A stretch of DNA of 64,000 nucleotides from Capsulimonas corticalis. GTDB lineage: Bacteria > Armatimonadota > Armatimonadia > Armatimonadales > Capsulimonadaceae. Each line of letters starts with the position of its first letter. The stretch's first letter is position 1. Both the position numbers and the translations under genes were made by a program. Positions 46,436 through 51,723 of the stretch are shown piece by piece. The notes under the pieces were generated by a model, which had not been told where the DNA came from, did not search any database, and worked only from the letters and a program-made list of their open reading frames with translations. The DNA lies in NCBI RefSeq assembly GCF_003574315.2, contig NZ_AP025739.1, positions 1,550,001-1,614,000 on the forward strand, read 5' to 3'.

Positions 46436-46966
46436 TCAGTCCATCTCTAACTTCTTGATGACGGCATCCATCGGCATATGCAAGCGCATCGGATCTCGTT
46501 CATCAGCAACTTCAAATCCAAGATGTAAATACAGCGATTTCGCATTTTCGTCCGCCGCATCCACTGTAATCGCCAGCAGACCGCTAACAGCATCGATTTG
46601 CCGGCAATTATGGAGACAGTGCATCACCATTTTCCGAGCAAATCCCTTTCCGGAATATGTCTTGGCGACCGCCATCTGAGCCAGAAGAGCTGCCGTTACG
46701 CTCTTTCCAGGAGGAGCTTTGTAAATCGGCGGAGACTCGTCAAACGATATTGTCGCCATAGTCAATGTATAAAATCCAAGAATTGCCGTTGGCTCGTCAT
46801 CTGCAATAATGACGAATGTTCTTGCTTGATGGCGTTTCATACGCTGGAGCGCCATACGCTTTAAGTAGTCGTCTATCTTGGGGTTTTCAGACTCGAAGCT
46901 ACGTCGGTCATGCGCAGAAGTGAGCATCTCGATTTTGTAATGACGCGGCTGACCAATTTCCGTCAT
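46436..46966 (-). CDS. GNAT-family acetyltransferase toxin (TacT-like)
   Basis: A 176-aa acetyltransferase with the TacT/AtaT layout: FESENPKIDDYLKR at the N-terminus, a central ILGFYTLTMATISF strand pair, the acetyl-CoA loop AKTYSGKGFARKMV and a C-terminal YLHLGFEVAD. Such toxins acetylate aminoacyl-tRNA. It overlaps the upstream DUF1778 antitoxin by 4 nt (ATGA). Codon use is lower in G+C than the surroundings. It directly precedes dciA. Confidence 0.9.
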   Translation of the reverse strand: MTEIGQPRHYKIEMLTSAHDRRSFESENPKIDDYLKRMALQRMKRHQARTFVIIADDEPTAILGFYTLTMATISFDESPPIYKAPPGKSVTAALLAQMAVAKTYSGKGFARKMVMHCLHNCRQIDAVSGLLAITVDAADENAKSLYLHLGFEVADERDPMRLHMPMDAVIKKLEMD

Positions 46967-47280
46967 GCCTGAAAATGGTAAACACCATCCTCAAAATAGC
47001 CTTTATTGAAATCGTCAGCCGCTTCACGCAGCGCTTCATTGGGACCATCCGTCTTATCCAAAAGCGCCAAAAATCGATCTCTCGCTTCATTGTCCATGCG
47101 AATGACCCGACGCTCCATCAAAACCTGAGTTGCCCGCTCTAGCGCAAGGTTGACAATGAAAGCATTCACCGTCATGCCCAGCTCGCCGGCGGCATCCTCA
47201 ATTGTCCCCTTCACTGATGGGGACACTCTCAGATTGACGCGTTCACTTGACTTTTCCGTCGATATTTTCGTTGTGGCCAT
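46963..47280 (-). CDS. DUF1778 antitoxin (TacA-like)
   Basis: A 105-aa antitoxin with a ribbon-helix-helix domain (SERVNLRVSPSVKGTIEDAA and MTVNAFIVNLALERA) and a C-terminal acidic toxin-neutralising region (DDFNKGYFEDGVYHF). The DUF1778 family is the usual partner of GNAT toxins, as seen here by the ATGA overlap. Lower G+C than the replication genes on both sides suggests horizontal gain. Confidence 0.9.
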   Translation of the reverse strand: MATTKISTEKSSERVNLRVSPSVKGTIEDAAGELGMTVNAFIVNLALERATQVLMERRVIRMDNEARDRFLALLDKTDGPNEALREAADDFNKGYFEDGVYHFQA

Positions 47281-47778: not shown

Positions 47779-48106
47779 TTACGATTCTTGTTTCGATATA
47801 GGCCAAACAAACGGCCGAACTGCTTCGATCGCATCGCGATAGGTATTCTCCGCTATTAATAGATCGTACCGATTCTGCATATTCATCCACATCTCAGGCG
47901 TTTGACCAAACAAGCGTCCCAGTCGAAGAGCAATATTGGGAGTAACATTACGCTTTACCGCCAATAATTCTGCAAGTTGCGATTGGGTAATGTTGAGCAG
48001 CTTCGCGAAGCGATATTCAGAAAATTCCCATTTCTGGGAGATAGTCCAATCGCAACGTTGTCCCTGGATGGATATTAAGGAGAAAATTGGGATCATCCAA
48101 TTCCAT
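47779..48106 (-). pseudogene. Frameshifted HigA-family antitoxin
   Basis: From the ATG at 48106 the reading frame starts like HigA (NIHPGTTLRLDYLPEMGI) and then meets a stop. The rest continues in another frame as SEYRFAKLLNITQSQLAELL and RLFGQTPEMWMNMQNRYDLL, which is the HigA helix-turn-helix. The join lies at a run of four A on the plus strand (48021-48024). Removing one base would give an intact protein. It is a pseudogene, a sequencing error or, less likely, a programmed frameshift. GAGGTG precedes the ATG. The gene starts 9 nt after the upstream antidote gene stops, so the two are one operon. Confidence 0.85.
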
Positions 48107-48115
48107 CTACGCACC

Positions 48116-48424
48116 TCAAGCGGCCATCGCGCTGTCAGAATTTTTCTCGATATGCGCTAAATTGATCTGCAAATTCAATGCAGAAAGTACAGAAAGCACA
48201 GTCCGAAATTCCGGATTACTGCCTTCACGCAGGCTCTTATAAAGACTAGCCCGACTCACAGATGCAGAATCTGCGAGTTTAGTTACTCCATTCGCTTTGG
48301 CGACATTTCCGAGTCCCGTTAAAAAAGTATCTGGACCATCTTCCAAGCACTCTTGAAGATAAAGAGCGATAAACTCAGGATTCTGGAAATCACTCAAAAT
48401 AGTCGTGGAATCTTTCTGTGGCAT
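48116..48424 (-). CDS. Addiction-module antidote protein (HTH type)
   Basis: A 102-aa DNA-binding protein of the family of HTH antidotes paired with RelE/HigB-like toxins: LGNVAKANGVTKLADSASVS and RASLYKSLREGSNPEFRTVL are conserved. A partner toxin is normally encoded upstream, but the upstream sequence up to recF has no such gene, so it appears to be orphaned. It heads a two-gene unit with the frameshifted HigA-like gene. A promoter is seen at 48466-48494. Confidence 0.82.
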   Translation of the reverse strand: MPQKDSTTILSDFQNPEFIALYLQECLEDGPDTFLTGLGNVAKANGVTKLADSASVSRASLYKSLREGSNPEFRTVLSVLSALNLQINLAHIEKNSDSAMAA

Positions 48425-48570: not shown

Positions 48571-49704
48571 TTATTGCAGTTCTAATTTGCCGCCGCTGAC
48601 GGCGTACACCCGCGCCTGTTCCAGAACACCCTTGGAGAAGGGGCGCAGATTCGTACAGCTCAGGAAGGTTTGGGAGCCGGCGCGTTCGGTGAGGTCGAAG
48701 AGGTGGTGGCGGCGGACGTCGTCGAGGTCGGAGAGGACGTCGTCGAGGAGAAGGATGGGGGGCTCGCCGACGAGTTCTTCGATGAGTTGGCGTTCGGCGA
48801 GTTTGAGCGAGAGGGCAACGGTGCGCTGCTGGCCCTGGGAGCCGTAAAGGCGGGCGTCGGAGCCGTTGACGAGGAAGGTGAGGTCGTCGCGCTGCGGGCC
48901 GCGCAGAGTCGTGCCGCGATTCATCTCGTCGTGGGCGACGGCGGCGAGGGCTTCGGCGAAGGCTTCGCGGACTCCGGCTTCGTCCACGGCGCCGTCGAGC
49001 GGGAATGAGGGAACATAAACGACCTGGAGGGAATCGCGGCCGTCGCTGAGAGTCTCGTGGACCTCGGCGGCGAGCAATCCGAGTCGCTCCAGGAAGAGGC
49101 GGCGGCGGTCGATGAGTCGCGCCCCGTGATGCGCCAGCTGGGCGCTCCAGCTAGGCAGGACCTCTCGCAACCCGTCCAAGCTCCCCCGGGCGTCTCTCAG
49201 GTCACGCAGGAGCCGATTACGCTGCTCCAGAGTCTTTCGGTAAGCTCCCAATGCGTGCACATACCGGGGGGATGTCTGGGCGATCTCCAAATCCAGGAAC
49301 TGGCGGCGGATGGCGGGTTCGCCGCGGACGATCTCCAGATCCCCGCTGTCAAAGAGAACCGCGTTCAATTGGCCGATCACTTCGGCGAGCTTCGTATGGC
49401 GGACTCCGTTGACTCTCGCCACTTTTTTGTCCGTCTGAGAAAAGATCATCTCCAGAGCGACATCGCTGTTCTTTTCGCGAGTCACATGCGCCGTGATTCT
49501 CCCGACGGGATCCTCAAAGCGAATCAGCTCGATATCCTTGCCGGCGCGAGTCGACTTGCTGGTCGCCAGAACGTAAATGGACTCCAGCAGATTGCTCTTG
49601 CCCTGAGCGTTCCGTCCCGAGAAAACATTGAGACCGGGACCTGGCTCGATTCTCAGCCTTTCATAATTCCGAAAGCTCTCCAGCTCAAGAGTCTCAATCT
49701 GCAT
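48571..49704 (-). CDS. recF: DNA replication and repair protein RecF
   Basis: A 377-aa SMC-like ATPase, loading RecA at gapped DNA with RecO and RecR. Walker A GRNAQGKSN (30-38) and the signature region YGSQGQQRTVALSLKLAE are visible, followed by Walker B ILLLDDVLSDLD. The N-terminal LETLELESFRNYERL is typical. A TATACT (49761-49756, minus strand) may be its -10. The dnaN gene that usually precedes recF is not here; instead the iteron-rich region separates it from dnaA. Confidence 0.95.
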   Translation of the reverse strand: MQIETLELESFRNYERLRIEPGPGLNVFSGRNAQGKSNLLESIYVLATSKSTRAGKDIELIRFEDPVGRITAHVTREKNSDVALEMIFSQTDKKVARVNGVRHTKLAEVIGQLNAVLFDSGDLEIVRGEPAIRRQFLDLEIAQTSPRYVHALGAYRKTLEQRNRLLRDLRDARGSLDGLREVLPSWSAQLAHHGARLIDRRRLFLERLGLLAAEVHETLSDGRDSLQVVYVPSFPLDGAVDEAGVREAFAEALAAVAHDEMNRGTTLRGPQRDDLTFLVNGSDARLYGSQGQQRTVALSLKLAERQLIEELVGEPPILLLDDVLSDLDDVRRHHLFDLTERAGSQTFLSCTNLRPFSKGVLEQARVYAVSGGKLELQ

Positions 49705-50106
49705 ATGTCCCGATTCCCGCTCCCTAGATTCGCCCCGCCTCAGAGTCTTATTCCCAGTATATAAGAATGATTCTGGATTCGTCTTAGTAATAGAATTGTG
49801 ACTCGGCTGTGACTCCAGAATCGCGAATCGCGGGATTCGACGGATTCACGGCGCGACTCGTAAAGCCCTAGTAGCGAGACTCGAAAACGACTCGGGAATC
49901 GCTATGGAATCGACGAGTCACATTCGAGTCACACAGGAGTCACAGAGTCCGCGAATCCCAGCGAGACTCGTGACTCTCGCCCCCGCGATTCCTTGGAGGA
50001 GTCACAATGGAGGGAGTCACAGGCACGGAGAGTCACAATCGAGTCACAGCGAGTCACGTTTGAATTCTCGCTGACGTTTGAGAAGAGTCGGAGATTCGCC
50101 GCGAGT
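49705..50106. other. Candidate replication origin (oriC) with GAGTCAC iterons
   Basis: The 402-bp gap between dnaA and recF. GAGTCAC occurs on the plus strand at 49915, 49926, 49937, 49999, 50014, 50030, 50041 and 50051, and reversed (GTGACTC) at 49798, 49809 and 49970. Nine of the eleven are followed by A (GAGTCACA). Spacings of 10 or 11 bp recur, placing sites on one face of the helix. No TTATCCACA box is seen. GANTC occurs 33 times between 49689 and 50107. The A+T-rich stretch 49748-49797 could be the unwinding element. Origin function is inferred from position and repeats. Confidence 0.7.
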
Positions 50107-51723
50107 CTACAGCGAATGCTCGATCGCTCCGCGAATCCCGGCGATGATCGCGAGAATCTTGGGATCGGACTCCAGTGAGCCGCGCATGCGGGAATGGGCG
50201 TGGGCGATGGCGGAGTGATTCTTGCAGCCGAAGGTGACGGCGAGCGCGGACATGGGAGTCTTGCTGAGCTCGCGGCACAGGTACATGCAGATCTGCCGCG
50301 CCAGCGCCACATCCTTGTCGCGGCTGCCGCCGTTCAGGATCATTTCCTTGGAGACGCCCATGTGCGCCGCGGCGGCGTCCAGAATGATGTCCACGGCCGC
50401 TCCCGCGCCGCTGCCGGTGTCCGGGCGTCGCAGGGCGACATAATCCGTGGGCGAGGGCGCGAAGCTGGGCATGCGCTCGACAAAATAGGAGCTCAGCACA
50501 TCGCTCGCCAGCTGCTTGGTGATCGGACTCTTCGCCAGCGACGCGTACGCCATCAATTTGATCAGCGCGCCCTCCAGAGCCCGGATGTTGCTCTGGATGA
50601 GACTCGCCATGAAGGCGATGACGTCGTCGGGGATCCGCAGGTTCTCCAGGATCGCCTTGCGCTGGAGGATCGCCATGCGCATTTCCAGCTCCGGCGGGGA
50701 GATATCGGCGATCAGGCCGCATTCGAAGCGGGAGCGCAGGCGCTCGTCCATCAATCGCAGCTCGCGCGGCGAGCGGTCGCTGGTGATCACGATCTGCTTG
50801 TTCTGCTGATGCAGCGTGTTGAAGGTATGGAAAAACTCCTCCTTCGTCTGCTCCTTGGAGGCGATGGTCTGGATGTCGTCGACGAGCCAGACATCGACGT
50901 TGCGATACGCGCGCCGGAACTCCTCCGTGCGCTTGTCGCGCAGCGCCATGACGAAGTGGTTCGTGAAGGTCTCGCCGCTGACATAGGCGACTCGGGCGTG
51001 CGGCAGCGTCGCCCGCACATAGTGGCCGATCGCCTGCATCAAATGCGTCTTGCCGAGGCCGGGGCTGCCGTACAGAAACAGCGGATTGTAAGTGCTGCCC
51101 AGGCCCTGCGCGACAGCCATCGCGCCGGCCTGCGCCAATCGATTTGATTTGCCGACGACGAAGTTATCGAACGTATATTTATCGCTGAGCGCGCTCGACG
51201 TCAATTCCGAGCTGAATGGATTGTTGCTCTCGACGATCCGGGACGATTCCTTTGCGGGCTCGCTGCGGCGGGGCATGACTTCGGGCCGGATGCCGTCGCG
51301 GATCCCGCTGAACGCCGCGCGGTCCGGCGGCGCGCCGGCGCTGGGGGAGGCTGCCTGCTGGAGCGGGAGAGGCTGCTCGCCGAGCAGAGGATGCACTTCG
51401 GACGAAGCGGTCACGAAGCGCAGTTGCAGGCCGGTCGTGTCCAGATGCTGCTCTAAGTAGCCGCGAAGCTCCTGAGAGTACTTTTTTTCCGACCACTCGC
51501 GGGCGAACGCTGAGGGCGCGCCGAACACAATGATCGTCCCATCGAACGACAGCGGCTGGAGCGCCTGGAGAAAGTTCTTGAAGGTGGCTTTGTTATACTT
51601 ATTGGCCAGCGTGCGCAGCGTCCTGTCCCAGGCCTTGCGCAGCGCGATGATGTGCTCATCTTCGCCCAGCACGAGCTGCTGTGTCTGCGCGGGCGGTTCT
51701 TCAGGTTTTGGGTGGCTGCTCAC
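50107..51723 (-). CDS. dnaA: Chromosomal replication initiator DnaA
   Basis: A 538-aa initiator, longer than E. coli DnaA (467) mainly because of a long domain II (about residues 105-180). Domain III carries Walker A GSPGLGKT (219-226), Walker B VWLVDD (278-283) and the arginine finger in RLRSRFE. Domain IV is complete but its DNA-reading residues differ from the norm: the position of E. coli Arg399 is Leu474 (DVALARQ instead of SVARPRQ), and the GGRDHTT signature is GCKNHSA (499-505). The GTG at 51723 is the start. A promoter and a leader hairpin lie upstream. Confidence 0.96.
   Translation of the reverse strand: MSSHPKPEEPPAQTQQLVLGEDEHIIALRKAWDRTLRTLANKYNKATFKNFLQALQPLSFDGTIIVFGAPSAFAREWSEKKYSQELRGYLEQHLDTTGLQLRFVTASSEVHPLLGEQPLPLQQAASPSAGAPPDRAAFSGIRDGIRPEVMPRRSEPAKESSRIVESNNPFSSELTSSALSDKYTFDNFVVGKSNRLAQAGAMAVAQGLGSTYNPLFLYGSPGLGKTHLMQAIGHYVRATLPHARVAYVSGETFTNHFVMALRDKRTEEFRRAYRNVDVWLVDDIQTIASKEQTKEEFFHTFNTLHQQNKQIVITSDRSPRELRLMDERLRSRFECGLIADISPPELEMRMAILQRKAILENLRIPDDVIAFMASLIQSNIRALEGALIKLMAYASLAKSPITKQLASDVLSSYFVERMPSFAPSPTDYVALRRPDTGSGAGAAVDIILDAAAAHMGVSKEMILNGGSRDKDVALARQICMYLCRELSKTPMSALAVTFGCKNHSAIAHAHSRMRGSLESDPKILAIIAGIRGAIEHSL

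Follow-up and report, generated by a model that had tools for sequence, protein, structure and literature searches.

The stretch of DNA analysed here (the window, G000:C1:1550001-1614000) comprises 64,000 nucleotides of the genome of Capsulimonas corticalis, a single contig of 7,645,051 bp, and contains dnaA, coding for the replication initiator DnaA, the neighbouring recF gene and, between them, a short intergenic region that is the predicted replication origin (oriC). We describe here how this initiator and its putative binding sites, the DnaA boxes, appear to have changed together. The protein scores 443.6 bits against TIGR00362 (cut-off 343.9) and matches PF11638, PF00308 and PF08299 above their cut-offs, corresponding to domains I, III and IV (58.6 bits for the last); by its domains and neighbourhood it is thus still recognizable as DnaA, with altered residues on the surface predicted to read DNA. 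The initial annotation of the locus had named a second, canonical dnaA as a finding that would speak against a changed initiator, and none was found: the whole genome holds one PF08299 domain, and the only further TIGR00362 match is a 22.9-bit fragment of an AAA domain.

The repeats reported earlier beside dnaA are real (Table 1). Nine exact copies of GAGTCACA fall within 402 bp, compared with three in a 780-kb sample of the remaining genome (39 stretches, L215-L253), where 13.6 would be expected from dinucleotides; one additional exact copy lies within recF at 49479. Scarcity of this kind might follow from the avoidance of stray DnaA sites, and the pentamer GANTC as a whole is depleted in the same sample too (2144 observed vs. 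4011 expected). All six same-strand tandem pairs of GAGTCACA (gap 1-30) in the 7.6-Mb genome are found between dnaA and recF, the control pattern giving none. Clustering of canonical TTWTNCACA boxes was not detected, as tandem TTATNCACA pairs are absent from the genome (TTTTNCACA pairs were not searched genome-wide), and TTATCCACA, with 40 copies in the genome (control 14), is missing from the window. Relative to TTATNCACA, the new box has G instead of T at position 2 and T at the unspecified position 5, together with G instead of T at position 4 in three of five genera, giving nGA[G/T]TCAC(A). The array lies beside a degenerate DnaA-trio-like array, close to dnaA and at the minimum of the cumulative GC skew, as is typical of a DnaA-dependent oriC; the skew was sampled coarsely, at 41 points, and its trough is broad, extending from about 1.46 to 1.80 Mb with the lowest point at 1.74 Mb and the locus at 1.60 Mb.

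Table 1. Features of the dnaA-recF region and of the ccrM homologue (window positions, except for the last row).
Feature	Position	Strand	Remarks
dnaA, 538 aa	50107..51723	-	sole DnaA with domain IV found in the genome
DnaA domain IV	50107-50400	-	PF08299
Minor-groove loop and start of next helix, residues 462-477	50293..50340	-	aligns with E. coli 394-408; exceeds the normal length by one residue
Arg468 and Leu474	codons 50320-50322 and 50302-50304	-	Arg399 and Arg405 equivalents (alignments, AF2 model)
Asn502-His503-Ser504-Ala505	50209..50220	-	start of recognition helix; D433 H434 T435 T436 equivalents
dnaA-recF intergenic region, predicted oriC	49705..50106	.	402 bp; 31 GANTC (20 outside GAGTCAC boxes); 9 exact GAGTCACA and 2 one-mismatch boxes
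DnaA-trio-like array TATTACTAA	49784..49792	-	4 nt from the closest box, on its CACA side
Two boxes, GAGTCACA	49797..49815	-	49797-49804 and 49808-49815; adjoin trio-like array
Three tandem boxes, GAGTCACA	49915..49944	+	49915, 49926, 49937; 11-bp spacing
One-mismatch box AGAGTCACG	49969..49977	-
Four exact boxes and one-mismatch box GAGTCACG	49999..50058	+	exact at 49999, 50014, 50030, 50041; mismatch at 50051
recF	48571..49704	-
CcrM homologue	G000:C1 ~685,035-686,159	-	N6_N4_Mtase and RAMA domains; DPPY and DPFxGxGTT motifs

Base contacts of DnaA have been assigned to positions 399, 423, 432-435, 438 and 439 (PMC5043019); in Escherichia coli the helix 434-451 recognizes TnCACA from the major-groove side, with Arg399 recognizing TTA in the minor groove (PMC5742627), and the contact residues, with Arg371 of Clostridioides difficile as the Arg399 equivalent, are conserved among Firmicutes and E. 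coli (PMC7561715). We took the base-contacting residues from these three sources and anchored the numbering on E. coli K-12 DnaA from NC_000913 (467 aa; Arg399, Arg405, Pro423, Asp433-His-Thr-Thr436). The equation of Arg399 with Leu474, made in the initial annotation, turned out to be a misnumbering. In the phmmer alignment, SRDKDVALARQ of the Capsulimonas protein falls on KRTKSVAFPRQ of Bacillus subtilis, which makes Arg468 the Arg399 equivalent and places Leu474 opposite a Phe corresponding to E. coli Arg405; the 199-row alignment gives the same register. Position 405 is variable: E. coli has Arg, B. subtilis Phe and lactobacilli Val, and Thr or Asn occurs in others. In the AlphaFold2 (AF2) model (mean predicted local distance difference test score 76.8, with values of 76-91 for domain IV in blocks of ten residues), Arg468 lies directly ahead of the helix 470-486 and Leu474 inside it, so that the minor-groove arginine is present. 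The assignment of the DHTT block, by comparison, was correct, His alone being retained from the D433-H434-T435 motif. In all, the Capsulimonas protein carries P423S (S492), D433N (N502), T435S (S504), T436A (A505) and L438A (A507), with Arg399, His434 (H503) and His439 unchanged; residue 432 is Lys.

The comparison of two families of the same order provides evidence that these substitutions go together with the new box. These are the window's own Capsulimonas-like family (f1; seven genomes examined, the closest named relative found being a Capsulimonas metagenome-assembled genome, MAG, with 91% DnaA identity) and a second family (f2). Across the phylum Armatimonadota, 126 dnaA loci were examined and L185, where the best open reading frame is not DnaA-like, was dropped, leaving 125 usable loci, seven of f1 and 118 others. 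Asp433 is lost in 7/7 f1 loci and in 14 of the 118 others (retained in 104), Ala436 is found in 7/7 and in two, and Ala, Ser or Thr occupies position 438 in 7/7 and in one. The segment 394-408 is 16, 20 or 23 residues long in every f1 locus, as against 15 residues in the 118 others and in all 39 loci from outside the phylum. Arg399 is retained by alignment in five f1 loci and ambiguous in two. The statement that the reading residues are nearly invariant was too strong: of the 118 loci, 62 have Ser at 435, 41 retain Pro423 and 34 carry Lys at 432. Ala436 is rare. In two f1 relatives (L004:2051-4996 and L005:2246-4984), an in-frame, intein-like LAGLIDADG_3 insertion splits the AAA+ domain of DnaA.

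The boxes changed in the same genomes. Arrays of GAGTCACA lie at dnaA in five f1 genomes (G000, G021, G022, G023 and G024), and arrays of GATTCAC occur in the other two (G020 and G025); in G025, the dnaA flanks examined contain neither version, and the GATTCAC cluster lies on another contig, beside what looks by eye like the start of recF. Upstream dnaA flanks of the f1 loci scanned hold no repeat of the box, a recount in G020 and G025 giving one single GAGTCAC. In f2, DnaA keeps the canonical residues for the most part, and the boxes are of the TTATCCACA type: tandem TTATNCACA pairs are present in five of the eight f2 genomes tested (G008, G009, G015, G018 and G019), the three g8 genomes lacking them under the pattern used, and in none of the seven f1 genomes; one stray GAGTCACA pair was found in G015. 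The trio-like array lies 4 nt from the nearest box in 5/5 GAGTCACA origins, and in three f2 loci the canonical boxes lie 2, 2 and 5 nt from such an array in the same orientation; the scan found none beside the boxes of the remaining f2 loci, and at L115 and L116 a trio array lies 15-16 nt past the last exact box. The coincidence of residue, loop and box shifts in f1 (7/7) upholds the co-evolution of initiator and origin suggested in the initial annotation, and we regard a joint change of DnaA and origin to the new box as very probable.

The alignment of domain IV with the repeats flanking dnaA had been recommended as a check. Clustered motifs were found in only 31 of 128 loci, the scan missing both GATTCAC genomes, so that a phylum-wide code from residues to bases could not be drawn. 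Among the 31, D433 is present at all 15 loci with canonical TTWTNCACA boxes and at L169 (TTATTCACC), and absent from eight of the ten with other DnaA-like boxes, namely five of f1 and three of family f19 (L124, L125 and L132), where TTTTCAACA boxes accompany D433N; the two exceptions, L006 and L167, both carry Ala435, and the remaining five motifs are not box-like. Loss of D433 thus goes together with boxes of non-canonical type, although the lineages concerned are few. In family f8, TTATCAACA or TTTTCAACA boxes are found with T435A and H439Y, and the pairing of TTTTCAACA or TTATCAACA with D433N or Ala435 was also observed in L124, L125 and L132, in the f8 or Chthonomonas-like L006, L007 and L167, and in L175. 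Elsewhere in the phylum, 12 of 13 D433-less genomes lack a TTATNCACA pair and one (G206) has a single pair, their own origins being mostly not identified. The DnaA of L146 and L160 (family f25) reads Thr-His-Pro-Ala at 433-436, and no origin motif was found at dnaA in these loci.

What the initial annotation passed over is that positions 2-6 of the new box spell G-A-N-T-C, the target of the cell-cycle methyltransferase CcrM, and that the genome encodes a CcrM-type methylase; judged from sequence, these two features explain the new box best. N is G in three genera (five genomes) and T in two genera (two genomes), so that each iteron, whether GAGTCAC or GATTCAC, includes a methylation site. The dnaA-recF gap is 28-fold enriched in GANTC above the background of 2.75/kb; when the background was divided into 15,593 overlapping windows of equal length, the highest count was seven. 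Nine of the 15 GAGTC-GANTC-GANTC triples of the genome lie in this gap (control 4), the last reaching one base into dnaA. We considered whether the non-box GANTC sites could be decayed boxes; this was rejected because decayed GAGTCACA would mostly leave a G or C centre and 13 of the 20 have A or T (one of the 13 being GATTCAC).

The CcrM homologue aligns with Caulobacter CcrM (PDB 6PBD) over residues 9-340 (E 2.7e-133), and at 512.8 bits vs. 830 misses the NCBIfam cut-off for the Caulobacter-type equivalog; it is hence a homologue and not that equivalog. Its RAMA domain is found in six of seven f1 genomes (two of the six matches slightly below the Pfam cut-off, and the RAMA-less genome 69% complete) and in none of 12 f2 genomes, and DPPY and DPFCGTGTT are present in all six f1 homologues. 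No restriction enzyme was recognized among three scanned neighbours of the gene, two of which match no family; directly after it, on the same strand, lies a gene for a 1051-aa BTAD/NB-ARC/TPR regulator (L290:3380-6532, minus strand). Across the phylum, the RAMA domain occurs in 71 of 291 genomes. A GANTC-dense dnaA 3′ flank (at least 12 in 400 bp) was found in seven of 31 RAMA-positive genomes (five of f1 and two of f8) and in one of 95 RAMA-negative ones (126 genomes), this one being G021, an incomplete genome from the genus to which the window belongs; the maximum in f2 is seven. L006 and L007, two named Chthonomonadaceae MAGs, are dense as well, and some Chthonomonas-like (f8) origins (L006, L007, L167 and L168) contain 19-27 GANTC in 1.3 kb, three other f8 loci not being dense. 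Methylation of the GANTC sites by CcrM is something we hold to be likely.

Taken together, our preferred interpretation, which we judge on balance probable, is that DnaA of the Capsulimonas-like family switched its specificity to a box, nGA[G/T]TCAC(A), that incorporates a CcrM site, and that methylation gates initiation; the last step, suggested by analogy, is in our estimate about evenly poised. Domain IV would have been rebuilt to fit the new box, with a longer minor-groove loop and with P423, D433, T436 and L438 mostly replaced by smaller or uncharged residues. Late in the cycle, CcrM would fully methylate the boxes at A3 of the top strand and at the adenine pairing with T5 on the bottom strand; passage of the fork would turn them hemimethylated, and until remethylation by CcrM they would be poorly bound by DnaA, or the GANTC cluster would be masked, so that each origin would fire once per cycle. 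Since canonical DnaA reads position 3 by the minor groove and leaves position 5 unspecified, methylation at these two positions could be accommodated or become something that the protein reads, and the smaller or uncharged residues at 433, 436 and 438 are compatible with room for methyl groups. A bolder version, to which we give tentative and less than even credence, is that DnaA itself may be the methylation reader, preferring doubly methylated nGm6ANTCAC boxes through loss of the bulky or charged D433, T436, L438 and P423 and that initiation would thereby be switched once per cycle with no need for SeqA. The sequence itself shows the box cluster, the residue and loop changes, their family-wide association, the GANTC density and the CcrM homologue; from these we infer binding of DnaA to the boxes, methylation of the sites and an effect of methylation on binding.

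Several observations weigh against this interpretation. Within the origins, six box variants differ at N and 21 break GANTC (null about 3:12), which reveals no clear preference for N, although Capsulimonas itself (two genomes) has three variants at N and none that breaks GANTC. The majority of RAMA-positive genomes (24 of 31) have no GANTC-dense dnaA 3′ flank, and in f8, where 16 of 17 genomes possess RAMA, the dnaA flank is dense in two of five loci and the boxes are TTATCAACA-like and free of GANTC; the methylase alone therefore does not force a box change. In G020 and G025, the scan detected no trio-like array next to the boxes. In genus g4 (two loci), a loop insertion blurs the register of Arg399, the alignment showing Leu with an Arg adjacent to it. 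A tree of domain III recovers f1 as monophyletic (0.93, 5/7 loci) but does not unite f1 and f2 in a clade. Finally, f1 is a single evolutionary branch, and the Fisher values for the associations (e.g., 1e-11 for the loop) assume independent genomes and thus overstate the independence of the data.

Among the alternatives, the one that survives best, although we consider it unlikely, is that DnaA is gated by a dedicated SeqA-like or GcrA-like reader bound to the GANTC-dense origin and is itself indifferent to methylation. E. coli SeqA offers a precedent (PMC2865523), most GANTC of the origin lie outside the boxes, and the f8 origins that are dense with GANTC-free boxes imply that a dense origin does not require a fused box; yet GcrA was found above cut-off in none of the 19 genomes of the order, a 23.6-bit partial match in the Capsulimonas genome being the only one, and a separate reader leaves the uptake of GANTC by the box itself unexplained. 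Slightly more doubtful is plain co-evolution, by which DnaA and box would have drifted jointly to nGA[G/T]TCACA with GANTC being incidental, and methylation, if any, would act via other GANTC sites or transcription. Only T2 to G and T at position 5 separate the canonical box from GANTC, GANTC-free shifts did occur in f19 and f8 as described above, and the origin variants do not clearly spare the site; against this, G2, A3, T5 and C6 are fixed and N4 is free in two groups of genera, and the shift coincides with the presence of CcrM, absent in f2, and with the strong GANTC enrichment. It is very improbable that a DNA-binding protein other than DnaA, such as a regulator of dnaA or recF, uses the GAGTCACA iterons as its sites: the palindromic GANTC in the core would suit such a protein, but in position, copy number and orientation by the trio-like array the iterons match the canonical DnaA boxes of f2, the f1 genomes have no TTATNCACA tandem pairs, and the DnaA reading surface is altered in the same family. 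The initial explanation, that loss of Arg399 ended minor-groove reading and with it the TTAT half, is hardly credible, for although the loop length is altered and base 2, within the TTA read by E. coli Arg399, has changed, the arginine is kept and the new box is a TTATNCACA with substituted positions and not one that lost its TTAT half.

The system proposed here, in which DnaA box and CcrM site are fused, can be placed beside several known systems. With canonical DnaA and its boxes in E. coli and in the basal unwinding system of B. subtilis, it shares domains I, III and IV, the His434 and Arg399 equivalents, the CACA half of the box and boxes beside a DnaA-trio, here a trio-like array (PMC10721633); it differs by the new box, the replacement of D433, T436, P423 and L438, the longer loop and the lack of TTATNCACA tandem pairs. 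The nearest demonstrated analogue for methylation-dependent iteron binding is RctB of Vibrio cholerae chromosome II, whose iterons each hold an adenine-methylation site and whose GATC-bearing 11- and 12-mers are bound efficiently only when fully methylated by Dam (PMC2865523). However, RctB is that chromosome's own initiator and its site is GATC, whereas here DnaA and GANTC are concerned and methyl dependence would hold by analogy. Caulobacter has GANTC in its origin and a CcrM to which the Capsulimonas homologue corresponds near full length, including RAMA, but differs with respect to GcrA. The weak "G-boxes" TGATCCACA of Caulobacter likewise have G at position 2. One source states that initiation in C. 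crescentus needs GANTC methylated on both strands (PMC2865523), and a later review, which counts against our interpretation, that CcrM is not required for it (PMC6090056); the literature consulted is therefore divided. Thermotoga maritima DnaA also combines non-canonical reading residues (Ser-His-Pro-Val by alignment) with a box of its own, ACCTACCAC (PMC10316083), in a different lineage and without GANTC. Epsilonproteobacterial boxes have a fixed T at position 5 and their DnaA mostly Ser at 435, although the same study describes them as following the general pattern, with retention of Arg399 and strong conservation of the 433-434 dyad (PMC5043019).

Elsewhere in the window, inspection by eye suggested a GNAT-type acetyltransferase beside a small DUF1778-like protein, a combination reminiscent of a toxin-antitoxin pair (46436-47280), and two small helix-turn-helix genes beside recF that resemble an addiction module (47779-48424).

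The DnaA box is often regarded as near-universal, and the two families f1 and f2 offer a natural before-and-after comparison of how specificity can switch jointly in an essential initiator and in some dozen sites of its origin. A literature search found no paper that links GANTC and a methyltransferase with Armatimonadota. If the methylation link holds true, this would be, as far as the literature searched shows, the first DnaA box with a CcrM site in its core, and the timing of initiation by methylation could be tested with two purified proteins and short DNA.
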